64,000 nt of DNA. It comes from Bradyrhizobium sp. 1. GTDB lineage: Bacteria > Pseudomonadota > Alphaproteobacteria > Rhizobiales > Xanthobacteraceae. The stretch is from NCBI RefSeq assembly GCF_023073315.1, contig NZ_JADPJH010000011.1, forward strand, positions 300,837 through 364,836, written 5' to 3'. This document shows positions 4,344 to 54,917 of the stretch, piece after piece. Numbering within the stretch: the stretch's first letter is position 1; each line of letters starts with the position of its first letter. The notes below the pieces were generated by a model. It had not been told where the DNA came from and did no database searches. It saw nothing but the letters and a program-made list of their open reading frames with translations. The position numbers were made by a program, and so were the translations under genes.

Positions 4344-5048
4344 CTAGTTCACCAGTGCGCCGCCATCGACATAGACGATCGAGCCCGTAGCAAAACCGTT
4401 CGCCATGAAGCTTCCTATCTGCCGGGCAATGTCCTCGGCCATACCGACGCGACCAACGGGCAGCGCAGCCGCCGTCTTCGCCAGCATCTCCTTCCGCGCC
4501 GCCTCCGGCATCGCCGCCCGGATCGGCGTGTCGATCACGCCCGGCGAGACCGCGTTAACGCGCACCGGCGCAAGCTCGAGCGCGAGTGCACGGGCGAGCG
4601 ATTCTAGTGCACCGTTCGCAGCACTGATGATCGCCGAGTTCGGCCGCGGCCGAATGCTGAGAAAACCTGTGACCAGCGTCAACGAGCCGCCGGGCCGGAT
4701 CTCGGCCTCGCGGGCGACGCGCCATGCACCCCAGAATTTTCCTTCCATCGTCGCACGCACGTCCTCCATCGAGACCGTCTTGAATGGACCGGTGCGAAGC
4801 TGAGCGGCCGTCAGGACGACGTGATCGACGGGACCAGTGCGGCGGAACAGATCAGCGACGCTCTGGTCATTGGTGACGTCGGTGGAAATGGCCGTCACCT
4901 TCAACCGCTCCGCGACGGGATCGAGCTTTGCCGCACTGCGCGAGGCGATGACCACGTCGGCGCCCTCTCTCTTCGCGAGCTCTGCCGTGGCAAGCCCGAT
5001 GCCTGAGGAGCCACCGATCACGACGACCTTCTTGCCTGCGAGCGTCAT
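4344..5048 (-). CDS. Divergent short-chain dehydrogenase/reductase
   Basis: The 234-residue Rossmann protein has a nucleotide-binding motif (VVVIGGSSGIGLA) near its N terminus, an Arg-rich cofactor loop (SRSAAK) that suggests NADP(H), and a C-terminal glycine pair typical of SDRs. The expected YxxxK catalytic pair is not present: the aligned segment reads IISAANGALESLARAL, with Ile and Asn at the two positions. A divergent SDR subgroup is known to show this, so it may use a different residue or be non-catalytic. The second ATG (5048) sits 6 nt after an AGGGGAG site, whereas the first ATG abuts that site. It lies between the ThDP enzyme and the cupin, probably in one operon. Confidence 0.82.
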   Translation of the reverse strand: MTLAGKKVVVIGGSSGIGLATAELAKREGADVVIASRSAAKLDPVAERLKVTAISTDVTNDQSVADLFRRTGPVDHVVLTAAQLRTGPFKTVSMEDVRATMEGKFWGAWRVAREAEIRPGGSLTLVTGFLSIRPRPNSAIISAANGALESLARALALELAPVRVNAVSPGVIDTPIRAAMPEAARKEMLAKTAAALPVGRVGMAEDIARQIGSFMANGFATGSIVYVDGGALVN

Positions 5049-5093
5049 TCCCATCTCCCCTGGTTTTCTTGATTGATGATTTGCGCTGCGCGA

Positions 5094-6893
5094 TCAGCCA
5101 GGCTGGAAGCGCGTGCCGATGCCGGCCTTGCTCTGGCCAAGGCCCGGCAACTCCCAGACACCGGCGCCAACCGGATTGATGTCAGCGGCGATGTCGACGT
5201 CGATCAGATACGGCTTGTTGGCGGCGATGCCCTTGCGAATCGCCTCGCCAAGATCGCTGGCGCGATCGACCCGCACGCCCTCAACGCCGCAGGAGCGCGC
5301 CATCGCCGCGAAATCCGGATTGTAGCGCTGGCCCGTCTCCGGATGCTTGAAGTCGGTCGCGAGCTCGCGTCCGCCGAGATAGCCGCGCTGAAGCCCGCGG
5401 ATCGAGGCGTAGGCGTAATTGTTCCAGACCACCCAGACCACGGGTAGATTGTACTCGACCGCCGTGCCCAACACGTTGGCGTGCATAAAGAAGGCGCCGT
5501 CGCCGCACACGGAGACGCAGGGCCGATCGGGCGCGGCGAATTTTGCGCCCATCACGCCGGCGACGCCAAAGCCCATCGGGCCGAACCCCATCGATCCGAT
5601 CAGCGAATCCGGCCGCTTCGGCTTGCAGAAGCCGAGCAGCCAATTGTGGTGCACGCCGATGTCGGAGACCAGGATCGCATCCTCCGGCAGCGCCTTGTCG
5701 ATCTCGGCGGCTGCGCGCTGCGGGTTGATCGGCGTGGTGTCGTCGGAGAAGCCGGGCGCGACGAACTTGTCCCACTCCTTGCGATAGCCGTCGATCTGCG
5801 CCAGCCATTTTTTGCGCGCGTCGGACTTTTTAAAGAGGTTGTCGCGGCGATCGAGCTCGGCATGCACCTGGCGCAGGAATGTGCGGACATCGGCCATCAA
5901 TCCGAGTGCGACGGGATAATTGCGGCCAATCTCTTCAGGATCGATGTCGACGTGGATCAGCCGCGTCGGCGGGATCGTGAAGGAATAGCCGGGGATCCAC
6001 GAGCTCGAGGTGCGGTCGTCGAAGCGGACACCGAGCGCGAGAAGCACGTCGGCCTGGCGCGTGGCGTGATTGGCCTGATAGTGCCCGGCACGCGCGACGA
6101 GGCCGAGCGCGAGCGGGTGCTTGACGTCGAGCGCGCCGAGCCCGCTGGCCGAGGCCGCAACCGGAATCTGAAGCCGTTCGGCGAGCATGCGCAGCTCGTC
6201 CGCCGCGCCGCCATAGCGCACGCCCTGCCCGACCAGCATCACCGGCCGTTCGGCCGCAAGCAGCATGTCGACGGCCTTCTCCACGCCTTCCGGATCGGCA
6301 CCGCAGCGGCTGGAAATATTGGCGCTCCACTCGCTCGCCTTCGGCGCCTCTTCGGCGGCCGCCTCCATGAAGACGTCGAAGGGGACGTCGATCACGACAG
6401 GCCCCGGCCGTCCCGTCACCATGGTCTTCCAGGCCTGCCGCACCGCGAGCGGCACCATCTCCCCGCGCGTCGGCTGAAACACTTTCTTGCACATCGTGCG
6501 CACGGTGGAGGGGAAGTCGGCCTGATAGTGCCGGTACATCTCCTGGAACGCGCCGCGGTTGAACTGGCTGGTCGGCACGTTGCCGGTGATCGCCATGAAC
6601 GGCACGGAATCGAGGAAGGCATTCGCCAGCGAGATCGGCAGATTGGCCGAGCCCGGCCCGCAGGAGGTGAAGGTCGCCGTCGGCCTGCCCGAGACCCGGT
6701 AATAGACGTCGGCCATAAAACCGGCGACGCTCTCGTGATGCACGGAGATGGTCTTGATCTCTTGGGAGCGCTCATACAGCGCGTCGATGAACTGGATGTT
6801 GCCGTGGCCGCAAAGCCCGAACACCTGCGGCACCTTTTCCTGGATCAGATAATCGACAATGACCTGGGCGCCATTGAGCATGTTCTTCGACAT
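5094..6893 (-). CDS. Thiamine-diphosphate-dependent enzyme (acetolactate-synthase-like)
   Basis: The 599-residue protein has the three-domain layout of the pyruvate oxidase/acetolactate synthase family. The cofactor-activating Glu lies in VHHESVAGFM (Glu54). The ThDP/Mg motif starts GDG at 464-466 and ends NN at 491-492. The middle domain (about 190-340) is of the FAD/ADP-fold type. No ilvN-like small subunit is nearby. Association with an SDR, a cupin, an IclR regulator and a Liv-type transporter suggests a catabolic carboligase or decarboxylase rather than valine/isoleucine synthesis; the substrate is unknown. The start is ATG 6893; a TTG codon immediately upstream is in frame but unnecessary. 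Confidence 0.86.
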   Translation of the reverse strand: MSKNMLNGAQVIVDYLIQEKVPQVFGLCGHGNIQFIDALYERSQEIKTISVHHESVAGFMADVYYRVSGRPTATFTSCGPGSANLPISLANAFLDSVPFMAITGNVPTSQFNRGAFQEMYRHYQADFPSTVRTMCKKVFQPTRGEMVPLAVRQAWKTMVTGRPGPVVIDVPFDVFMEAAAEEAPKASEWSANISSRCGADPEGVEKAVDMLLAAERPVMLVGQGVRYGGAADELRMLAERLQIPVAASASGLGALDVKHPLALGLVARAGHYQANHATRQADVLLALGVRFDDRTSSSWIPGYSFTIPPTRLIHVDIDPEEIGRNYPVALGLMADVRTFLRQVHAELDRRDNLFKKSDARKKWLAQIDGYRKEWDKFVAPGFSDDTTPINPQRAAAEIDKALPEDAILVSDIGVHHNWLLGFCKPKRPDSLIGSMGFGPMGFGVAGVMGAKFAAPDRPCVSVCGDGAFFMHANVLGTAVEYNLPVVWVVWNNYAYASIRGLQRGYLGGRELATDFKHPETGQRYNPDFAAMARSCGVEGVRVDRASDLGEAIRKGIAANKPYLIDVDIAADINPVGAGVWELPGLGQSKAGIGTRFQPG

Positions 6894-44316: not shown

Positions 44317-44832
44317 ATGGGACTGTTCACCAAGGACATCAAATCGATGGAAGACCTGCTGATGCACGGTCTTCAGGACATCTATTACGCGGAGCAGCAG
44401 ATCCTGAAGGCTCTGCCCAAGATGATCGACAAGGCCACCAGCCGCGACCTCGTGACCGGACTCACGAACCATCTCGAGGAGACCAACAAGCAGGTGGAGC
44501 GGCTCGAGAAGGTGTTCGCGAAGCTCGACAAGGAGCCCAGCGGGACCCAATGCCCGGCCATCGACGGCATCATCAAGGAAGCCGACGAGACCGCTGGCGA
44601 GATCGAGGACAAGGCCGTGCTGGACGCCGCCATCGTGGCAAACGCGCAGGCCGTCGAACATTACGAGATGTGCCGCTACGGGACGCTGATCGCCTGGGCC
44701 GAGGAGCTCGGGCACAACGAGATCGTGCGTTTTCTCACGACGAACCTGAACGAGGAAAAGGCCGCGAACACCAAGCTGAACACAGTGGCCCTGCGCAAGG
44801 GCGTCAACGCCAAAGCATCCAGCGCGGCGTAG
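44317..44832 (+). CDS. DUF892 (YciE/YciF-type) ferritin-like stress protein
   Basis: The 171-residue protein is a four-helix ferritin-like bundle. It begins MGLFTKDIKSMEDLLMHGLQ and carries the expected metal-ligand pattern: DIYYAEQQILKALP, NHLEETNKQ, AQAVEHYEMCRYG and NLNEEKA. Relatives (YciE/YciF) are strongly induced in general stress and starvation. GAGGGAGA precedes ATG 44317. A perfect EcfG promoter is directly upstream. Single-gene unit, divergent from the ligase cluster. Confidence 0.92.
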   Translation: MGLFTKDIKSMEDLLMHGLQDIYYAEQQILKALPKMIDKATSRDLVTGLTNHLEETNKQVERLEKVFAKLDKEPSGTQCPAIDGIIKEADETAGEIEDKAVLDAAIVANAQAVEHYEMCRYGTLIAWAEELGHNEIVRFLTTNLNEEKAANTKLNTVALRKGVNAKASSAA

Positions 44833-45307: not shown

Positions 45308-47809
45308 TTACGAAACCCCGGCCGCCCGCCTCGATGTTCCGCTCCTGACTGATGCGACAAGGCTCCGCGCCAGCGCACCGGCGAGCTCCGCCGACACCAG
45401 CGGGTGGTGAACGAGCTCAGTGATTCCTGACGTCTTGAGCGAGGGAATCGCCAGGTCGCGCGTCGAGGGCGCTGCCAGGATGATCGGCAGATCAGGCACG
45501 GCATCATGCAATGCCGCTGCGAGTTCGAGCGAGGAGCCTCCGGGCAGGTGACACACCAGCGCCGCGTCGAACCGGGCGTGCGCGGCCCGGCAGGCGTCGA
45601 TCGCCTCCGCCAGCCCGGTGAAGCCGACGGGTTCATAACCCAATGCAGCGAGGATTTCCTCATAGCGCAACAGGCGGCGGCGGTCGGTGTCGATCACGAG
45701 CACGGTTTCGCCGGCGCCCCGCAGCGCCGGATCGTGGCCGCATTGAGCCGGCCGCGGCTCGTCGGGGTCGCCCGACGGCAGCCAGACGTCGAAGCGCGTG
45801 CCGGCATCGGGCTTGCTCTGCACGGCGATGGCGCCGCCATGTTGCTCGACGATCTCGCGAACCGTTGCGAGCCCGAGGCCGTTACCATCCGGGCGAGTGG
45901 TGAAGAACGGCTCGAAGATCTGCTCCAGCGTCGCCTCGTCCATGCCGGGTCCGGGATCGGTGACAGAAATGACGGTGAAGCGGCCAGGACCGACTTCGCT
46001 GCGCCCGATCGGTAGCGCCCTTGCAAGCTCCCGCGTCTCGATCCGGAGCTCGATGCGGCCTGGCTCCTTCATCGCCTGCGCCGCATTGTTGCACAGGTTC
46101 AGGATGACCTGTTGCAACTGGGCCGGCTCGCCCGTCACGAACGCCGTATCGGCGGCATCGCTGACCTCGAACTTGACGTGCGAGGGTAGTGATGCCGCCA
46201 GCAGCGATTTGGTTTCGTCCACCAGGGTCTTGACGCAGACACGCTCCCGCCTGCCCTCGCCGCGGCGCCCGAAGCTGAGAATCTGCTCGACCAATTCGCG
46301 CGCCCGCTCGCCGGCCCGGCGGATCTCGGCGAGGCTCGCGGCCGGACGGCTTCCCGACGGGACCCGCGCATCGGCCATTTCGGCATAACCGAGAATGGCA
46401 CCGACGATGTTGTTGAAGTTGTGGGCGATGCCGCTGGCGAAGGTGCCGATGGTCTCCATGCGGCGCGCATGCTGCAAACTCGCCTGCAGGCGCTCCTTCT
46501 CGCCTTCGAGCCGGGCCCGCCTGATCGCGTTGCCGATCGCGTCGAAGGCCATGCGAAACAGGGACACTTCGGCCCAGTATGTGAGCGCGCCGCCGCGCAC
46601 GGCATCGAAGCCGAGAATGCCGTCGCGGCTGCCATAGGCCGCCATGATGCATAGCCAGCCGCTCACGCCGGCCTCGGCGAGCAGGTTCATCGTGTCATGG
46701 CGATGTGAGCCGTTGACCTTGGGAATATAGACGATGCCGTCGTCGCCGCCGTCAAATCGCGGCGCGAGCCCGAGCAGCCGCTCCGGCCAGCCCGGCTCGA
46801 ACGCGACGCCGTCGCGGGACCACCGGTAGGTGTGCATCGTGGTCCCGACCACGCAGGCAAAATAGGCGCGGTCCGCGCCGATATATCCGGCAAGCTGGTG
46901 CAGCGCCATCTCGACATCGGTGGCGATCCGTTCGTTGCTCGAGTTGATGAACAGCATCGAGATGTTGGCGATCGCGTGCTCGAACGTCGCGCGCCGGCGC
47001 AGCGTCACGGCCCGTTTGCGGAGCAGCACGCCGAAATAGAGGATGCCGGAGAGCAGCAGCAGCGAGGTGATATACTGAAGCAACCGCGTCTGGCGCGCCG
47101 AGGCGCGCGCGGCAAGCTGGCGTTTCAGGATGAGGGCCAGCATGGCATCCTGCTCGCGGTTGTTGGACTCGGCGACGAGCGTCTTCAGGATGATGTCGAT
47201 ATCGGGCAGTAGGTCATGCAGCATCTGTCCATGAGTCAGCAGCGCGCTGACCGAGTCCTTCTCCGCCGGCGGCGTTTGCAGTTGCGCCAGCTCTTCCAGC
47301 CGGTCCTCGACCTGGCGCGCCGCCGCGTCCGAGGTATCGAGCGTCAGGCGCAGCATGGCGGCCGCCAATGCGGAGGACGCCGTCACCAGCGGCCGCGTGT
47401 CCGATTCAGCCAGCTTGTCGCTGAACAGAACGAAATAGGCGAACGAGTTCTGGAGCAACGCGTTCCTGCTCTTGAACCGTTCGATCAGGCTTTCCTGCCG
47501 GCCGGCCCGCGCCGACAGCACGTCGATCGCGCCGGTCTGCTCGACGTCGAGGCCCGCCGTATCGCGCAACTTTGTCAGGGCATCGTCATAGGCATTCACC
47601 ATTTCCACCAGCCCGTCATAGTTGCGCGACAGGCCGGCGCGCGCAGTGAGGACTTCCCTGGTCATCCCGCGTTCGAACCGGCTGAAATCCCCGAGCGCCT
47701 GCAACTGGGTGTCGTAGCGCGCCGAATTGACGTTCAGCCCGTTGAGCAGGAGCCAGGTGAGAAGCGCGAGCACGAATGCAACGCAGGCGACGAGCGGAGC
47801 AGATCTCAC
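45308..47809 (-). CDS. VirA-like membrane sensor histidine kinase with degenerate receiver
   Basis: The 833-residue protein starts by GTGA overlap with the upstream dihaem gene. Helix 1 spans about 4-24 and helix 2 about 247-267, flanking a long helical periplasmic sensor. It then has a GAF-like domain (about 285-440), a HisKA domain with His463 in SGIAHNFNNIVGA, an HATPase domain (NLCNNAAQAM, DPGPGMDEATL, GNGLGLATV) and a C-terminal receiver-like domain (VLVIDTDRRRLLRYEEILAALG). In that last domain the phosphoacceptor Asp is missing (segment DAALVCHLPGGSS), as expected for an inhibitory receiver. The order matches Agrobacterium VirA, whose partner VirG has a close relative at 49.7 kb. Confidence 0.88.
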   Translation of the reverse strand: MRSAPLVACVAFVLALLTWLLLNGLNVNSARYDTQLQALGDFSRFERGMTREVLTARAGLSRNYDGLVEMVNAYDDALTKLRDTAGLDVEQTGAIDVLSARAGRQESLIERFKSRNALLQNSFAYFVLFSDKLAESDTRPLVTASSALAAAMLRLTLDTSDAAARQVEDRLEELAQLQTPPAEKDSVSALLTHGQMLHDLLPDIDIILKTLVAESNNREQDAMLALILKRQLAARASARQTRLLQYITSLLLLSGILYFGVLLRKRAVTLRRRATFEHAIANISMLFINSSNERIATDVEMALHQLAGYIGADRAYFACVVGTTMHTYRWSRDGVAFEPGWPERLLGLAPRFDGGDDGIVYIPKVNGSHRHDTMNLLAEAGVSGWLCIMAAYGSRDGILGFDAVRGGALTYWAEVSLFRMAFDAIGNAIRRARLEGEKERLQASLQHARRMETIGTFASGIAHNFNNIVGAILGYAEMADARVPSGSRPAASLAEIRRAGERARELVEQILSFGRRGEGRRERVCVKTLVDETKSLLAASLPSHVKFEVSDAADTAFVTGEPAQLQQVILNLCNNAAQAMKEPGRIELRIETRELARALPIGRSEVGPGRFTVISVTDPGPGMDEATLEQIFEPFFTTRPDGNGLGLATVREIVEQHGGAIAVQSKPDAGTRFDVWLPSGDPDEPRPAQCGHDPALRGAGETVLVIDTDRRRLLRYEEILAALGYEPVGFTGLAEAIDACRAAHARFDAALVCHLPGGSSLELAAALHDAVPDLPIILAAPSTRDLAIPSLKTSGITELVHHPLVSAELAGALARSLVASVRSGTSRRAAGVS

Positions 47810-48795
47810 GGCGAGCCTCCCACGGGCGCGCCGCGATAGGTCCCGGTCAGGCTGCCCAGAAAAGCGACGAGCGACCTGGCCTGCTGGTCTGTCAGCGTCG
47901 CGTTCAACTGGGCCATCGCCATCTTGCGAACCGCGTCCTCGAGCGTCGGTGAGCTGCCGTCGTGAAAATAAGGCGGCGTGGTCGCGACGTTGCGCAGGCT
48001 CGGCACGCGCAGGATCTTCGGCTCGGGCGAGGCGAGAGGATGGAATATGCCGTGTCGCTCGTACAAATTGCCGCCGACATTGACGCCCTGATGGCAGGCC
48101 GAGCAACCCAGCGACTTGAACAGGCGATATCCGTCCAGTTCGTCCGCCGACAGCGCTGCATCGTCGCCCTGGAGCCAGCGATCGAACCTGCCGCCCGGCG
48201 TGAGCAGCGTGCGCTGAAAGCTTGCAAGCGCGTCGACGACATCGTCGCCCTCCGGACGGCGGCCATAAGCCGCCATGAAGCGGCCGCGCATGTCGAGATC
48301 GGCATCGAGCTTTGCGGCAATCTCCGCCGCGCTGCTAGCCATGGTGCGCGGGCTTTCCAGCGATGCGTTGATATCAGCCTCGACGGTGCGGAATTTTCCT
48401 TCCCAGCTGAAACGAAAGCTGAGCGTCGAGTTGAAGACGGTGAGCGAGTTGAGCGCAAGCTCCACCCCGTCGAGACCGACATCGTGCCGCTTCTGGCTGG
48501 CGCCGTTGGTCGCGATGTCATGGCAATATTGGCAGTTGCGGGAATTGTCGTGCGATACCCGGCGGTCGCTGAACAGTTTCTCACCGAGCGCGACCTTGAG
48601 CGGGTCGATGGCGGGAGCCGAAGGAATCGGCGTGATCGGCTCGCCGCGGTCCAGCACGACTGGCGGCGGCGATTGCGACGGCGCAGGCGTGACTTCCACG
48701 CAGCACAACAGCACCGCGCAAATGGCGATGACGCCGCCCCGATAGCCGGCGCCTGGCCCGGCTCCGCGAAATCCAATCAATGGTCGCACTGTCAA
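47806..48795 (-). CDS. Dihaem cytochrome c peroxidase/MauG-like protein
   Basis: The 329-residue exported protein has a hydrophobic N-terminal signal (VIAICAVLLCCVEV), CQYCH and CSACH haem-binding sites, and the CcpA/MauG layout KVALGEKLFSDRRVSHDNSRNCQYCH, ALNSLTVFNST and GFxxFxxLGC-like region. It should act in the periplasm on peroxide or in oxidative modification. The start is uncertain: TTG 48795 and GTG 48789 are both possible and no ATG fits. Its stop overlaps the start of the VirA-like kinase gene, so expression of sensor and haem protein is coupled. Confidence 0.84.
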   Translation of the reverse strand: MTVRPLIGFRGAGPGAGYRGGVIAICAVLLCCVEVTPAPSQSPPPVVLDRGEPITPIPSAPAIDPLKVALGEKLFSDRRVSHDNSRNCQYCHDIATNGASQKRHDVGLDGVELALNSLTVFNSTLSFRFSWEGKFRTVEADINASLESPRTMASSAAEIAAKLDADLDMRGRFMAAYGRRPEGDDVVDALASFQRTLLTPGGRFDRWLQGDDAALSADELDGYRLFKSLGCSACHQGVNVGGNLYERHGIFHPLASPEPKILRVPSLRNVATTPPYFHDGSSPTLEDAVRKMAMAQLNATLTDQQARSLVAFLGSLTGTYRGAPVGGSP

Positions 48796-48982: not shown

Positions 48983-49591
48983 TCAGCAATCACGGCAGTA
49001 CCTCACCGTTCGCTCGACGTCCGAACGGCAGCAGATTCCGAGATCGCGCAACGTCCGGTCGTCGAGCTCCTCGAGAGCGACAACCGCCCGTCTGATCTCG
49101 CGCTCGCGGCGCAGCTGCGCCGGCCATGCCGCCAACGTCTCGCCCGCTGCGCGCAGCCAGCTCCAGTGCCGCTCCGGTTGCGCCCCGAGCGGCCGGACGT
49201 GATCGAGCTTGACCACGTTGCCGGCGCCGGCACGGTCCTGCACCGGCTCCGGTGGCTCGCTGACGTCAGGGGGCGGCTCGCGATCTCTTGTTGCCGCCAG
49301 GATGGCATGAACCGGCATGGCGGCCGTCGGATGCAACGCCGCGCCATAGAGGGCAAAGCCTTCCATCAAGGCAAAGAGCAGCTTCCACCAGAATGAGCCG
49401 GCGCTCCGCCCCGGCTCCGCTTCGGGCCGCACCGGATGCGAACCGATGTCTGCAACGCTCTGCATCCCGGTACGGTCAAAACCGAAATGAACGAGGCCAC
49501 GGCCGTCGGACCGTGCAAGCCAGCCCGGTCCGTCAGGCTCGGTGATACTCAGGCGGACAACACGGGCTACACTGCGAGACTGCGCTTTCAT
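48983..49591 (-). CDS. DUF1127 protein with long N-terminal extension
   Basis: The 202-residue protein ends in a DUF1127 (YjiS-like) domain: EIRRAVVALEELDDRTLRDLGICCRSDVERTVRY. Small free-standing DUF1127 proteins act in phosphate, carbon and RNA-related stress responses in alphaproteobacteria. Here it is fused to about 150 residues of polar and Trp-rich sequence with a possible amphipathic or membrane segment (WWKLLFALMEGFALYG). ATG 49591 is unambiguous. It lies 188 bp upstream of the dihaem gene on the same strand, so the three genes may share one transcript whose 5' region carries a vir box. Confidence 0.85.
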   Translation of the reverse strand: MKAQSRSVARVVRLSITEPDGPGWLARSDGRGLVHFGFDRTGMQSVADIGSHPVRPEAEPGRSAGSFWWKLLFALMEGFALYGAALHPTAAMPVHAILAATRDREPPPDVSEPPEPVQDRAGAGNVVKLDHVRPLGAQPERHWSWLRAAGETLAAWPAQLRREREIRRAVVALEELDDRTLRDLGICCRSDVERTVRYCRDC

Positions 49592-49738: not shown

Positions 49739-50464
49739 CTAGAACGGATCTACGGGAACCGCGAAGACATAGCCGACGCCTCGCTCGGTCTGAATGACGC
49801 GCGGTGCGCTCGGATCGGACTCCAGCTTGCGCCGCAGCCGCAGCACCTGAACGTCGATGCTGCGATCGAAAATGTCCTCGTGGATGCGGGTCGCCTGAAG
49901 CAGGTGCTCACGGGTCAATGGCCGCTGCGGCGCTTCGAGGAAGGCCAGCAACAAGGCATATTCGCCCTTGCTGAGCGGTACCGGCGCTTCGCTGGGATCG
50001 ATCAGCTTGCGGCCGCGGCGCTCCAGCTTCCATCCGCTAAAGCGATAGCCGCCGCGCTCGGGATCGCGGGCGCGCGCGGCACGGCCCATCTCCTGTCGCC
50101 GCAACACCGCGCGGACACGTGCCAGCAGCTCTCGCAAGGAAAACGGCTTGATGATGTAGTCGTCGGCGCCGAGCTCGAGCCCGACGATACGATCGATTTC
50201 ATCGGGGCGGTGGCCGGTCGTGATGATGACGGGCACGTCGGAATGCGAACGGATCTCCCGCAGCAGATCCAGACCGTCTTCTTGACCAAGCCGAAGGTCG
50301 AGAATGATCAGGCTGGGCTGGCCGGCTTCGAGGTAGTGGTTCAACTCAGTCCTGTTGGAGGCCGCCCTGGTCGGGACGTTGTGCTCCTCGAGATATCTTA
50401 TCACCATCTGTCGCAAGGTGGGATCGTCGTCGACAACGACGATGTGGCCAACATCTGCAAGCAT
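49739..50464 (-). CDS. VirG-like OmpR-family response regulator
   Basis: The 241-residue protein has an N-terminal receiver with Asp12-Asp14, phosphoacceptor Asp56 in IILDLRLGQEDGLD, Thr82/Thr83 and Lys106 in YIIKPFS. The C-terminal OmpR-type winged helix includes LSKGEYALLLAFLEAPQRPLT, EDIFDRSIDVQVLRLRRKLE and RGVGYVF. Several stretches (REDGLD-like, LLLAFLE, YDRSIDV, LRLRRKLE) recall Agrobacterium VirG closely. Its partner is most likely the VirA-like kinase at 45.3-47.8 kb. The vir-box-like sites at 49672 and 52027 are plausible targets. Confidence 0.9.
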   Translation of the reverse strand: MLADVGHIVVVDDDPTLRQMVIRYLEEHNVPTRAASNRTELNHYLEAGQPSLIILDLRLGQEDGLDLLREIRSHSDVPVIITTGHRPDEIDRIVGLELGADDYIIKPFSLRELLARVRAVLRRQEMGRAARARDPERGGYRFSGWKLERRGRKLIDPSEAPVPLSKGEYALLLAFLEAPQRPLTREHLLQATRIHEDIFDRSIDVQVLRLRRKLESDPSAPRVIQTERGVGYVFAVPVDPF

Positions 50465-50911: not shown

Positions 50912-51862
50912 TCAGGAACGCGGGAGAGCCGTCAGGTACTGGTAGATCGCTGCCAGCTCGTCGTCGTCCATCCGCCCGATCGGCCGCCAGGGCATTTGCT
51001 CTTCGAGCCGATGTCCGTTCGGATCGACACCCGTGCGCATGGTGGCGATGAACTGTGCCTGGCTCCAACCCTTGACGATGATGAGGTCGGGTCCGAGCGG
51101 CGGCAATTGGCCGGGCACGCCGCCGGCGAGATCCTTGCCGTGGCATTCACGGCAGTCCTGATAGGACAGGAGGTACCTGCCATAGCGAGCCGTCGGCGCC
51201 TTCGGCGGCGCGATGATCGCACCGGTGAACACCGGCTTGGCGTCCGGCAGCAGTCCGGCGCCCAGCATCGCCAGCCCCAGCAGGCTGAAATGATCCGGCG
51301 GATCCCGGGTCGGCTCCCCCGTCGCGGGCAAGCTGCGGATATAGGCGATCACCGCCCTGGTGTCGTCGTCACTGAGTCGGCCGGCATTGGTGAAGGACAT
51401 GATCGCCAGCCATCGCCCCTGCGCGTCGACGCCATTGCGAATCGCGCGAAAGATCTCGCCGTCGGACCATTGCTTCAACGCTCCGGCGGGCGTTAGATTC
51501 GCCGGCACGAAGGAGCCGATCGGAAGCGGGAGATCCTCGCCGACGTCGCCGCCGCCGGACAACACGCCGCTGTTCGAATGACATCCGGCGCAGAAGCCAT
51601 CCGCGACCGCCCGGCCGCGGGCGATTTGCTCCGGCGTCGCATCGATCTTGAGATCGGGGACCGGCGCAGAACGGGCATGCTGCTTGACGATGCCGGCCGC
51701 GGTCAACGCGCCCATGCCTGACACCGCGATGGCCAGTGCTGCCACCAGCACCACGCCGCCCCACTTCACCACAAGATGATCTGCCCGCAAGGCGCGAACG
51801 CCGAGCCAGACCAGTAGCGCGATGAGAGCGACCATCGCAGCCAGGGCGACAACATCCTGCAT
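50912..51862 (-). CDS. Membrane-anchored dihaem cytochrome c
   Basis: The 316-residue protein starts with two hydrophobic segments (MQDVVALAAMVALIALLVWL, VVLVAALAIAVSGMGAL), so it is probably anchored to the inner membrane with its haem part outside. CAGCH and CRECH are the haem sites. The layout resembles cytochrome subunits of alcohol or aldehyde dehydrogenases and c-type electron carriers. GAGGAGT precedes ATG 51862. A perfect vir box lies 165 bp upstream, shared with the divergent glycosyltransferase gene. Confidence 0.85.
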   Translation of the reverse strand: MQDVVALAAMVALIALLVWLGVRALRADHLVVKWGGVVLVAALAIAVSGMGALTAAGIVKQHARSAPVPDLKIDATPEQIARGRAVADGFCAGCHSNSGVLSGGGDVGEDLPLPIGSFVPANLTPAGALKQWSDGEIFRAIRNGVDAQGRWLAIMSFTNAGRLSDDDTRAVIAYIRSLPATGEPTRDPPDHFSLLGLAMLGAGLLPDAKPVFTGAIIAPPKAPTARYGRYLLSYQDCRECHGKDLAGGVPGQLPPLGPDLIIVKGWSQAQFIATMRTGVDPNGHRLEEQMPWRPIGRMDDDELAAIYQYLTALPRS

Positions 51863-52026: not shown

Positions 52027-52040
52027 GTTACAATTGTAAT
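52027..52040. promoter_or_regulatory. Perfect vir box between divergent cytochrome and glycosyltransferase genes
   Basis: GTTACAATTGTAAT matches every position of RTTDCAWWTGHAAY (consensus recalled from VirG studies). It lies 165 bp before the cytochrome start and 183 bp before the glycosyltransferase start, so it could serve either or both. Its core is a 12-bp perfect palindrome, TTACAATTGTAA (52028-52039). Confidence 0.75.
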
Positions 52041-52222: not shown

Positions 52223-53575
52223 ATGAAGATTCTTATCGCTTCGACACCTGCGACCGGTCATCTCAATCCGATGCTAGCGATCACGCAGATCCTGGTCGGC
52301 GACGGCCATGAGGTCGCTCTCATGACCGGCACCGCCTTTCGTGCCCGCGTCGAAGCCAGTGGCGTCAAGTTCTTTCCCCTGCCGGAGGATGCGGACTTCG
52401 ATCCGAACGACGTCTTCTCACGGTTCCCCGAGCTCAAGACCATCCCGCCGGGGCTCGAGTGGTTCCGCGTTGCCTGCGAGCGCCTCTTCGTCGACGCCAT
52501 TCCGGCCCAGCACCAGGGGTTGCTGCAGGCGCTGCAGCAGTTTCCCGCCGACATCATCGTCGGCGACGACATGCTGTTCGGCGTGCTGCCGATGCTGCTC
52601 GGACCGCGCTCGCAACGGCCGCCGATCGTGCTCTGCGGGACCTCGTTCCTGCATTGGGCGCGCGAGGATGGCGCCCCGAATTTCCTCGGCCTGCAGCCGG
52701 CAAAGAGCGACGACGAGCGCGGTCAATATGCGGCGATGGCGCGGGATTATGATGCGGCAGTCGACCAGCCGGTGTCGCTGCGCCTGAATCGGGCGCTGAA
52801 GACCCTCGGCGTCGGACCGATCTCGATGCCGCTGTTCCATTCCGTGGTCGCGCTCGCGGATTCCTATATGCAATTGTCGGTGCCGAGCTTCGAGTTTCCG
52901 CGCGAAATCCCGTCCTCCGTGCACTTCGTCGGCACGCCTCCGATCATCCCCAACCAGGTGCCGCCGCCGGCCTGGGCCGAAGACCTCGACGGTTCGCGCA
53001 AGGTCGTTCTGGTAACGCAGGGAACGGTGGCCAATCACAATTTCAACCTGCTGGTCGCCCCGACGCTGGCAGCGCTTGCCGACGAGCCCGACATCCTGGT
53101 GATCGCGACCGCGGGCGGACGGCCGGTGAACGCCATCCCCGGCAAGGTCCCGTCGAATGCGCGCATCGCCCGCTATCTGCCGTTCGAATGGCTGCTGCCG
53201 AAGGTCGACGTGCTCGTCACCAATGGCGGCTATGGCAGCGTCAACCAGGCCATGAGCTACGGCATCCCGCTGGTCACGGCGGGACTGACCGAAGACAAGG
53301 CCGACGTCAACGCGCGGGTGGCGTGGTCCGGCGTCGGAATCAATCTCGAGACCAACGAGCCAACTCCGGAAGCCTTGCGCAACGCCGTGCGGGCGGTGCT
53401 CGACCAGCCGCGTTATCAGTTGCGCGCAGCGCAGATCGCGGACGAGTTCGCCGGGATCAACACACGGGCGGAGGTTCTCCGGGTCATCAGCGAGCTCGTG
53501 ACCGACGAGACCGAAGTGTCGCGCCAGCGCGCGATCGCTGCGAGCCAGGGACGGCGTGCCAGCCGGCGCGCCTGA
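52223..53575 (+). CDS. Family 1-type (UGT/MGT) glycosyltransferase
   Basis: The 450-residue protein begins MKILIASTPATGHLNPMLAI, the acceptor-domain start of GT-B enzymes of the UGT/macrolide glycosyltransferase group. Near its C-terminal half it has the nucleotide-sugar signature VLVTNGGYGSVNQAMSYGIPLV. Such cytosolic enzymes glycosylate small lipophilic acceptors or antibiotics. AGAGGT precedes ATG 52223. A strong hairpin follows its stop, and a Bcr/CflA efflux gene is immediately downstream, so a modify-and-export function is plausible. Confidence 0.86.
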   Translation: MKILIASTPATGHLNPMLAITQILVGDGHEVALMTGTAFRARVEASGVKFFPLPEDADFDPNDVFSRFPELKTIPPGLEWFRVACERLFVDAIPAQHQGLLQALQQFPADIIVGDDMLFGVLPMLLGPRSQRPPIVLCGTSFLHWAREDGAPNFLGLQPAKSDDERGQYAAMARDYDAAVDQPVSLRLNRALKTLGVGPISMPLFHSVVALADSYMQLSVPSFEFPREIPSSVHFVGTPPIIPNQVPPPAWAEDLDGSRKVVLVTQGTVANHNFNLLVAPTLAALADEPDILVIATAGGRPVNAIPGKVPSNARIARYLPFEWLLPKVDVLVTNGGYGSVNQAMSYGIPLVTAGLTEDKADVNARVAWSGVGINLETNEPTPEALRNAVRAVLDQPRYQLRAAQIADEFAGINTRAEVLRVISELVTDETEVSRQRAIAASQGRRASRRA

Positions 53576-53592
53576 TCCGCAGCTGGAGAAAA

Positions 53593-53625
53593 GCGATGGA
53601 GCGCGGCACGACCGCGCTCCATCGC
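53593..53625 (+). terminator. Hairpin after the glycosyltransferase gene
   Basis: A perfect 14-bp stem (53593-53606 and 53612-53625, arms GCGATGGAGCGCGG and complement) with a 5-nt loop lies 18 bp after the stop codon and 38 bp before the next gene. There is no T-run. It may be an attenuator that lowers expression of the downstream efflux gene. Confidence 0.7.
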
Positions 53626-53663
53626 CGCGTGAAAATTCATCACACCTCACCGGATATTCGTCC

Positions 53664-54917
53664 ATGCGGATCGAACCAGATTCTTTTGCATTCACGCTGC
53701 TGCTCGGCGCGCTCGCAGCCGTGCCGTATTCCGGCATCGACATCAATCTGCCGGCACTGGCCGCCACCGGCGCCGCGCTTGGTGTGAGCGCGTCGGATGT
53801 CGGGCTGACGATGAGCGCCTTCATGCTGAGCCTCGCCACCGCGCCGCTGATCTACGGACCGGTCTCGGACCGCATCGGCCGCAAGCCGGTCCTGGCCTTC
53901 GGCCTCGCGCTGTTCATCGCCGCCAGCATCGGCTGCGCCCTCGCCGCCTCGCTGCCGGTTCTGCTGCTCTGCCGCTTCGTCCAGGGCATCGGCGCCGCCG
54001 CAACCGCCACGACCTTCGCCATCATCCGCGATCTCTTCGACGGCGACGCCGCGCGCGGCAAGATCGGCAACATCATGGTCGCGGTCAATGTCGCGACCGT
54101 GATCGCGCCGACGGCGGGCGCCGCGCTGCTGGCGGCGGCCGGCTGGCAATCGATCTATGCGACCCAGGCCGCGGTCGGCTTCATGCTGCTGGTGGTGGTG
54201 ATGTTTCGCTTCGCCGAAACCGCGGCGGACGCTCCATCCGGCCGCATGATGCCATCAACCGTGATCGACAGTTATCGCCGGGTGCTGATGCATCCGGTGT
54301 CGCTCGCCTACATCCTGGTCGGCGCCGCGGGCGGCGCGACGGTGTTTGCCTACGTCACCGGTGCCTCGCTGTTCTTCGTCGGCGCCGTCGGGCTCTCGCC
54401 TGCGCAATACGGCCTGATCTTCAGCGCCTGCTCGGCGTCGGTGATGGCCGGCGCCCTCCTCGACGGCCAGCTTGGCCGGCGCGGGATATCCTCGGGCCAC
54501 ATGCTCGCCATCGGACTGACACTGTCGTCCGCGGCGAGCCTCGCCTTGCTCGCGATGACATTGGCCGGCTGGATGCCCACGGCGGTCGTCGTCGCGCTGC
54601 TGATGGCGGTGGCGCTCGGCTTCGGGCTGAGCGTGCCGAACGTGATGAGCACGACGATGCAGCATCTCCCCGACATCGCCGGCGCCGTCAGCGCCGCTGC
54701 CGGGAGCATTCAGCTGATCGCAGGTGCGATATCGAGCGGACTGGTGGCGGTGCGCTTCGACGGACGGACCGCGCTCTCGATGACGGCGGTGATGGCCGCA
54801 TCATCGCTGCTCGCACTGGTGCTGTATGTGCTGGTCGCGCGTCCCGCCGACCGCCGCCTGCATGCGCAGACGATCGATGCCGGCGCCGCAGCGATCCGGA
54901 ACCCCACGCGCTCCTGA
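53664..54917 (+). CDS. Bcr/CflA-type MFS drug efflux transporter
   Basis: The 417-residue protein has twelve predicted helices and the DHA1/Bcr signature: FTLLLGALAAVPYSGIDINLPAL at helix 1, PLIYGPVSDRIGRKPVLAFG between helices 2 and 3 and a conserved Arg in CRFVQGIGAA (helix 4). Relatives export chloramphenicol-, sulfonamide- or sugar-like compounds by proton antiport. It begins 88 bp after the glycosyltransferase, separated by a hairpin. The vir-box-like control upstream of the glycosyltransferase may include it. Confidence 0.88.
   Translation: MRIEPDSFAFTLLLGALAAVPYSGIDINLPALAATGAALGVSASDVGLTMSAFMLSLATAPLIYGPVSDRIGRKPVLAFGLALFIAASIGCALAASLPVLLLCRFVQGIGAAATATTFAIIRDLFDGDAARGKIGNIMVAVNVATVIAPTAGAALLAAAGWQSIYATQAAVGFMLLVVVMFRFAETAADAPSGRMMPSTVIDSYRRVLMHPVSLAYILVGAAGGATVFAYVTGASLFFVGAVGLSPAQYGLIFSACSASVMAGALLDGQLGRRGISSGHMLAIGLTLSSAASLALLAMTLAGWMPTAVVVALLMAVALGFGLSVPNVMSTTMQHLPDIAGAVSAAAGSIQLIAGAISSGLVAVRFDGRTALSMTAVMAASSLLALVLYVLVARPADRRLHAQTIDAGAAAIRNPTRS

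Follow-up and report, generated by a model that had tools for sequence, protein, structure and literature searches.

What does a VirA-like sensor kinase sense when its gene lies outside any vir region and overlaps a gene for a dihaem protein? The question is raised by a stretch of 64,000 nucleotides from Bradyrhizobium sp. 1 (contig NZ_JADPJH010000011.1, positions 300,837 to 364,836), referred to here as the window, which carries such a hybrid histidine kinase gene (Table 1). VirA is a classic inter-kingdom sensor, and to our knowledge its origin and the function of its receiver domain are open questions. The original prediction, made from the sequence of the window, had compared the kinase with VirA and had raised the possibility that it senses the redox state or product of the dihaem enzyme. 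In the analysis described here, sequence comparisons identify a VirG-like response regulator, the dihaem protein and the kinase as a conserved module, new here. That the kinase senses the dihaem protein is now the best-supported reading, on grounds that go beyond the original prediction, namely the conservation of this module and the co-loss of residues in the periplasmic DAHL domain. The comparison with VirA, in turn, needs to be reversed, since VirA itself looks like a derived member of the module.

The start codon of the kinase gene (GTG) sits within the stop of the dihaem gene (GTGA), giving the two open reading frames the overlap that had been noticed originally, of 4 base pairs (bp). The assignment to the VirA family and its architecture also held. 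The NCBIfam model NF010411, 'two-component system VirA-like sensor kinase', matches residues 1–831 with 976.6 bits (cut-off 647), and Pfam places DAHL (PF19443) at residues 27–242 with 143.2 bits, passing the gathering cut-off of 38, HisKA at residues 455–519 and HATPase_c at residues 561–679. The DAHL domain is flanked by two hydrophobic helices, as judged by eye. The AlphaFold model of the whole kinase (mean predicted local distance difference test score, pLDDT, 80.3; predicted template modelling score, pTM, 0.37) consists of a helical periplasmic domain, an α/β linker domain (approximately residues 292–402), the kinase core and a β/α fold (residues 702–832). The Pfam scan of the kinase matched neither GAF nor Response_reg; the α/β domain of the model may correspond to the GAF domain of the original prediction. 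Residues His463, Asn571, Asn575, Asp618, Gly620, Gly622, Gly642 and Gly644 are invariant in all 43 aligned sequences, and the catalytic residues of the kinase are intact. A VirB4-type gene (PF03135) had zero matches across the whole genome, which places the kinase outside any vir region, as had been stated. In the trees the window kinase belongs to a clade separate from five kinases of vir regions, and the nearest named relatives are Bradyrhizobium species.

Searches for kinases of this VirA-like family gave matches in 61 of 265 genomes at the level of the genus (E <= 1e-100), in six of 385 genomes of the class and in nine of 397 of the order (seven over the cut-off), each of these counts taking in the window's own genome. 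With further named loci added, 103 loci were analysed (cited below by our L numbers), several genomes being counted in two collections. A dihaem gene lies within 3.5 kb of the kinase gene in 98 of the 103, and in 98/98 of the non-vir loci that hold upstream DNA; the five loci without it are L021, L042 and L031, with 0 or 110 bp of upstream DNA, and the vir loci L125 and L126. Its position is directly upstream of the kinase gene in 97 of the 98 loci and downstream in L133, and the junction is an exact 4-bp overlap in 87. The genus search alone, with 64 loci representing all 65 match rows, gave a dihaem gene directly upstream in 63, the remaining locus, L208, beginning at a contig end with 2 bp of upstream DNA. 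Of the 103 loci, 62 have a gene for a VirG-like regulator no farther than 3.5 kb away: it precedes the kinase gene on the same strand in 51, lies upstream but on the opposite strand in 10 and follows the kinase gene in one. Many of the short loci end before the regulator position. The three genes also adjoin on plasmids, annotated or searched, of Skermanella, B. barranii, Indioceanicola, Sinorhizobium and Rhizobium. The regulator gene lies upstream there, on one strand or the other, except in Indioceanicola, where it is found downstream. At the level of sequence, these counts establish that the three genes are conserved together and that the overlap between the dihaem and kinase genes is fixed. 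In L133 a short dihaem-like match is found upstream of the kinase gene (1280–1477), and the downstream dihaem gene (4465–5457) is cut by the end of the locus, an arrangement that might reflect duplication and decay.

The regulator gene, located 1.9 kb upstream of the kinase gene in the window, was absent from the original prediction. The best model for its product is NF010430 (VirG), with 250.2 bits, below the cut-off of 344; in the search of the genome it is the top VirG match (249.7 bits, the next being 199.8), and the module regulator of Rhizobium johnstonii passes the same model with 394.7. The phosphoacceptor Asp and the Lys are present in 60 of 60 rows of the response-regulator alignment.

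The association of the dihaem gene with DAHL extends beyond the VirA-like family. A Pfam search for DAHL in 299 genomes of Pseudomonadota yielded 77 matches, 67 of them over the cut-off, in 57 genomes. In the short DAHL loci, the window's own among them, a dihaem gene adjoins the DAHL gene in 30 of 30. In 60 longer stretches, comprising all listed places minus 14 over the cut-off that are in short loci and minus three weak ones, it is directly upstream on the same strand for 44 of the 53 matches over the cut-off and for none of the seven below it. Both sets of loci combined give a directly upstream dihaem gene at 58 of the 67 places over the cut-off; together with the 4-bp overlaps and with the presence of only two CCP_MauG genes in the genome of 8 Mb, this led us to reject chance neighbours. 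Among 15 dihaem-linked DAHL proteins that were scanned, 12 are kinases or hybrid kinases, two carry GGDEF and one is without an output domain, and all three unlinked proteins scanned are kinases. What the wider set has in common is the periplasmic domain and the dihaem neighbour. The two DAHL–GGDEF proteins with an upstream dihaem gene (L225:2422-4869 and L272:2134-3474) are candidate haem-protein-gated diguanylate cyclases.

An alignment of 113 DAHL domains, 101 dihaem-linked and 12 unlinked (seven from the wider set and five from vir kinases), revealed a signature that follows the dihaem gene. Asp65 is found in 101/101 linked versus 2/12 unlinked domains, Asn121 in 100/101 versus 3/12, His193 in 97/101 versus 1/11, and Lys113 in 93/101 versus 4/12. 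Within the VirA-like module Arg57, Asp65, Lys113, Asn121, Ser122 and His193 are each present in 57 of 57 sequences, and in the vir kinases Asp65, Lys113 and His193 are present in none of five. The signature residues are spread over several helices of the DAHL model. On the best tree the linkage changes five times, with three pairs on well-supported branches, and the tree-aware pairs for Asp65 comprise two as predicted, none opposite and one with no difference. In sequence terms, the DAHL signature comes and goes with the dihaem gene, and we propose the dihaem protein as the partner of the DAHL domain. Literature searches limited to papers free of subscription found, among the papers listed, neither a partner of the DAHL domain nor a link between a dihaem protein and VirA-like or DAHL sensors, which is weak evidence of absence. 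Loci L245, L261, L262, L263, L264, L269 and L271 encode DAHL proteins with no upstream dihaem gene and with a mostly degraded signature, and may represent independent changes of partner, as in VirA.

The window system resembles VirA/VirG in passing NF010411 (1177 bits for VirA of pEHA105, 977 for the window), in the order DAHL–linker–HisKA–HATPase–receiver and in having an OmpR-type regulator whose best model is VirG. It differs in the absence of vir genes, in the dihaem gene within the operon, in the presence of Asp65, Lys113 and His193, and in the loss of the receiver Asp and Lys. In the kinase tree the five vir kinases share a node (100/98) with four modules on plasmids of Rhizobium and Sinorhizobium, all dihaem-linked (L123, L124, L144 and L145), the next to join being the dihaem-linked L139 (100/98). 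The wider nodes around this group are unstarred but contain dihaem-linked kinases; the placement draws also on a quick tree with more rows. VirG is similarly placed with L123, L124, L144 and L145 in the regulator tree (100/100), then with L122 and L146 (96/83 and 96/89), and in the dihaem tree the same four loci and L139 form one clade (99). No CCP_MauG gene was found on any of the five vir plasmids, and one is present on each of the two module plasmids searched alongside. VirA and VirG look nested inside the module, with VirA as a derived member, and the simplest history would have the dihaem gene lost once, in the ancestor of the vir clade. In the vir plasmids pRi_26-59 and pAtAB2-73d (L142:1-1114 and L143:1632-2648), a cytochrome P450 gene lies directly upstream of virA, in the slot of the dihaem gene in the modules; P450 genes are also found near the modules of Skermanella and Indioceanicola (L120 and L122). 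Three betaproteobacterial loci (L151, L152 and L153) encode VirG-like regulators with 48–53% identity; the hybrid kinases nearby match in the kinase–receiver part alone, and the stretch shows no dihaem match.

The dihaem protein had originally been called MauG-like. It belongs to the CCP_MauG fold family (PF03150), as do the MauG/MbnH-type enzymes, but its axial ligand is Met and not Tyr, the catalytic Glu is lost, and the scores of 106.8 bits with the MauG model (cut-off 443.85) and 123 with the MbnH-type model (cut-off 362.85) are both below the thresholds. Because of the axial Met and the low scores we reject its identity as a MauG-type enzyme. It is nearer to the bacterial cytochrome c peroxidases, with which it shares two CXXCH motifs, the Trp and the axial Met (as in 1iqc); its best solved relatives include 9qdt (1.5e-55) and 1iqc from Nitrosomonas (2.6e-53). 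Unlike these peroxidases, the module protein is without the distal His, the catalytic Glu and the Pro, and its gene overlaps a kinase gene. Both CXXCH motifs and Trp131 are conserved in 55/55 module dihaem proteins and the axial Met in 54/54 (one row being incomplete), whereas the distal His and the catalytic Glu are each present in at most 1/55, the Pro in 0/55 and the Gln in 34/55; in the window protein Thr and Ser occupy the Glu and Pro positions of the distal pocket. In five solved peroxidases Gln, Pro and Glu are present in all five and the distal His in four.

Glu, Gln and Pro are conserved across bacterial cytochrome c peroxidases, MauG and BthA, and a Glu variant of BthA loses activity (PMC6405878); a role in O–O cleavage is described for the Glu (PMC10094543). 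Dihaem proteins paired with other DAHL proteins retain the Glu in 39/44 and the Pro in 34/44, the distal His being found in 0 of the 43 shown (of 44). The ancestral pair may therefore have been a working, always-open peroxidase and its sensor. Since the glutamate for peroxide turnover is lost in the VirA-like branch, a role as signal-input subunit is more likely for the dihaem protein there than one as an enzyme, and this branch has likely turned the dihaem enzyme into a non-enzymatic input subunit. The other CCP_MauG gene of the genome (G000:C16:543951-544568, L002) encodes a protein with an axial Tyr and with Glu and Pro kept, nearer to MauG-type enzymes than the window protein.

Residues 701–831 of the kinase model align to 6zxb_A with Z of 18.5 and a root-mean-square deviation (rmsd) of 2.1 over 128 residues, in a stretch which we take to be the receiver of 6zxb. 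The phosphoacceptor position is occupied by Cys753, the Lys position by His802 and the Thr/Ser position by Ala779, according to the alignment, and the sequence has diverged too far for Response_reg to be detected by Pfam. Judged from the model, the receiver fold is retained and the domain is an Aspartate-less pseudo-receiver. It resembles other such domains (PMC12632262) in lacking the phosphorylation-site Asp while keeping the fold, and differs from them in forming the C terminus of a hybrid kinase, the Asp being present in the deeper relatives of this kinase. Among 101 aligned module kinases, near-copies counted, the phosphoacceptor position is Asp in 11, Cys in 50 and Gly in 20, and the Lys is present in 10. 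The original prediction had regarded the Asp-less receiver as a match to VirA; this is contradicted by Asp766 of the VirA receiver (PMC4705274) and by the vir-region kinases, in which both Asp and Lys are retained in 5/5. The receiver Asp is carried by the deep-branch kinases L055, L059 and L146, so its loss looks derived. The counter-possibility put forward originally, closer kinship to kinases that have an intact receiver and another partner, is borne out in its first half only, the partner of the deep relatives being the same.

The receiver of the window shares 61–95% identity with those of ten relatives, L011 to L027. Its identity compared with that of the periplasmic domain is 76 versus 65% for L016, 61 versus 38% for L027 and 91 versus 92% for L013, and both are low in distant loci (24 versus 27% for L123 and 23 versus 18% for L126). 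Being about as conserved as the periplasmic domain in near relatives, or more so, the receiver looks maintained, and we reject a decayed receiver on these grounds. The VirA receiver has been suggested to recruit VirG (PMC4705274), and by analogy such a role would suit the Asp-less receiver.

Structure prediction of the periplasmic domain, proposed originally as a check, was performed on the domain alone, because Foldseek with the whole kinase returned kinase cores. The predicted DAHL structure is helical (pLDDT 89.6; best Foldseek E 0.01) and of TorS/McpS-like fold, with Z of 16.0 to the TorS sensor 3i9y (198 aligned residues, rmsd 2.6), 15.6 to the McpS ligand domain 2yfb and 14.3 to TorS of the TorS–TorT complex 3o1j. 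TorS takes its signal via the periplasmic partner TorT. The window kinase would share with TorS/TorT a helical periplasmic sensor of similar fold and a signal delivered by a periplasmic partner, although here the partner would be a dihaem cytochrome and the identity is only 8–10%. VirA likewise reads its signal via ChvE (PMC9149312, PMC4285021), and by analogy with both systems we infer that the dihaem protein is the periplasmic partner of the DAHL domain.

We consider it likely that the three genes encode a redox- or haem-ligand-gated two-component system in which the DAHL domain reads the dihaem protein, and that VirA/VirG are its descendants minus the dihaem gene. In such a system, the dihaem protein would dock on the DAHL domain, as TorT does on TorS and ChvE on VirA, and in the VirA-like lineage it would serve as a signal-input subunit rather than as an enzyme turning over peroxide. 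Its redox state, or a ligand on the permanently open P haem, would set a helix running through the second membrane helix into the linker, upon which His463 would phosphorylate Asp56 of the VirG-like regulator. Lacking its Asp, the receiver would take no part in a phosphate relay and might recruit or restrain the regulator, as suggested for the receiver of VirA (PMC4705274). The phosphorylated regulator would then bind sites of the TTACAATTGTAA type, described below, and switch on the operon and, in this strain, also a glycosyltransferase–exporter pair. VirA/VirG of the Ti and Ri plasmids would derive from a module of this kind whose dihaem gene was lost. Beyond this, we lean slightly towards a broader reading, in which DAHL would act generally, across Pseudomonadota, as the receptor of a dedicated dihaem protein in the periplasm, coupled to kinase and cyclase outputs. 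VirA/VirG would then be the branch that dropped the dihaem protein and is now a plant-wound sensor, and in the branch of the window both the partner and the receiver would be catalytically dead and serve signalling only.

Several observations weigh against this interpretation. Nine of the 67 DAHL proteins over the cut-off have no dihaem gene upstream (for two, the upstream DNA is no longer than 165 bp), and the weaker DAHL matches, 0/7, lack it altogether. Independent co-loss events are few, so that a sign test cannot reach 0.05 and has no power; the tree test for Lys113 is weaker than that for Asp65, with 1.3 for and 0.1 against, and Asp65 itself is retained in two unlinked rows. Simple, shorter four-helix sensor domains also reach Z of 14–15, and since helical bundles match easily, the likeness to TorS may reflect a common arrangement only. 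Three betaproteobacterial kinases with no dihaem gene, meant as an outgroup, fall inside the kinase tree (89/91, unstarred), which leaves the root of the module unsure and does not affect the link of VirA to the Rhizobium and Sinorhizobium modules.

The alternative that fares best, which we nevertheless regard as unlikely, is that a small molecule, such as an oxidised phenolic or a peroxide product, is produced or broken down by the dihaem protein and bound in a pocket of the DAHL domain with no contact between the proteins, the signature being a ligand site, as in McpS, which binds dicarboxylates. The ligand-binding domain of McpS is among the best fold matches (2yfb), and the dihaem proteins of the wider set, most of which keep the catalytic Glu, could be enzymes. 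In the window's own family, however, Glu and Pro have been lost almost without exception, and a Glu variant of BthA loses activity (PMC6405878); moreover, an enzyme that released a diffusible compound would not require its gene to overlap that of the sensor. Less probable still is that the dihaem gene is a co-regulated target, that is, a feedback output and not the input. Regulators often adjoin their targets, and in two Skermanella loci (L027 and L054) a palindrome precedes the dihaem gene itself, with a related site upstream of the Bradyrhizobium operon. This would leave unexplained why periplasmic residues are lost along with the dihaem gene, why that gene is kept by DAHL proteins with other outputs (GGDEF and hybrid kinases) and why the 4-bp overlap is fixed. 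Very improbable is MauG-type chemistry, in which the dihaem protein would oxidise a DAHL residue and so leave a covalent record of exposure to oxidants: MauG, from the same superfamily, does oxidise a partner protein (PMC6405878) and Trp131 is kept throughout, but the axial ligand is Met instead of the Tyr of MauG, the Glu is lost, and no near-invariant oxidisable periplasmic Trp or Tyr is found except Tyr64 (56/57), which the vir kinases keep in 5/5.

If the DAHL domain does read the dihaem protein, a dihaem-linked relative would offer VirA an origin as a redox or haem-ligand sensor. The helical periplasmic domain of VirA would be explained by an original function in meeting a protein partner, whose place ChvE has since taken. 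The receiver, conserved among near relatives after loss of its Asp, would provide a natural comparison for the receiver of VirA, and haem proteins as detachable input subunits of membrane sensors become a testable idea.

Table 1. Coordinates of the module, its domains and the neighbouring features in the window.
Feature	Position	Strand	Basis and remarks
VirA-like hybrid histidine kinase	45308..47809	(-)	833 residues and stop, GTG start; NF010411, Pfam DAHL/HisKA/HATPase_c, AlphaFold model
DAHL periplasmic sensor domain, residues 27–242	47084..47731	(-)	signature R57, D65, E110, K113, N121, S122, H193; separate model
Second membrane helix and GAF-like linker, residues 243–430	46520..47083	(-)	secondary structure of AlphaFold model
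HisKA and HATPase_c core, residues 440–685	45755..46492	(-)	phospho-acceptor His463
Pseudo-receiver, residues 700–820	45350..45712	(-)	Asp to Cys753, Lys to His802, Thr to Ala779
Dihaem CCP_MauG protein, probably periplasmic	47806..48795	(-)	PF03150, 137.8 bits; two CXXCH, axial Met292, Trp131; without distal His, catalytic Glu and Pro
VirG-like OmpR-family response regulator	49739..50464	(-)	Asp56 and Lys106 intact
DUF1127-tailed protein	48983..49591	(-)	PF06568; between regulator and dihaem gene
Two-haem cytochrome c protein beside regulator	50912..51862	(-)	Pfam Cytochrome_CBB3 and Cytochrom_C, two stretches each
UDP-glycosyltransferase-like protein, candidate target	52223..53575	(+)	PF06722, PF00201
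MFS transporter, candidate target	53556..54917	(+)	PF07690
Palindrome TTACAATTGTAA, candidate site of VirG-like regulator	52028..52039		divergent stretch between cytochrome c and glycosyltransferase genes
Palindrome-like site TTACAGTTGCAA	49673..49684		82 bp upstream of DUF1127–dihaem–kinase gene row

The palindrome TTACAATTGTAA is the predicted binding site of the VirG-like regulator. In a sample of 54 loci and 20 kb of the window, it occurs with no more than one mismatch 16 times in the 55 loci, versus a mean of 0.2 and a maximum of 2 in 20 dinucleotide-shuffle sets; exact copies are found in 10 of the 55 loci, and 59 other palindromes of the same composition gave none. In the window and its near relatives it occupies the gap between the cytochrome and glycosyltransferase–MFS genes; in the two Skermanella loci it precedes the dihaem gene by approximately 80 bp, and in L046 it stands upstream of the regulator gene. 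It counts against the assignment that most loci are without an exact copy and that several of the matches come from close relatives. The core of TTACAATTGTAA resembles the vir-box consensus TNCAATTGAAAY; published work describes the vir box as 12 bp long, and none of the papers listed in a search for this string contains it. An alignment of up to 450 bp upstream of the regulator gene from 16 loci gave no clear footprint.

The remaining neighbours are shared to different degrees. The DUF1127-tailed protein has matches in the equivalent place of related Bradyrhizobium versions of the module, and the gene for the two-haem cytochrome c is retained in some related loci only. A glycosyltransferase gene is located 3–6 kb upstream of the kinase gene in 14 other Bradyrhizobium loci, in 10 of which it adjoins an MFS gene. 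Downstream of the kinase gene, on the opposite strand, lies a gene for a DUF892 protein (44317–44832, plus strand).

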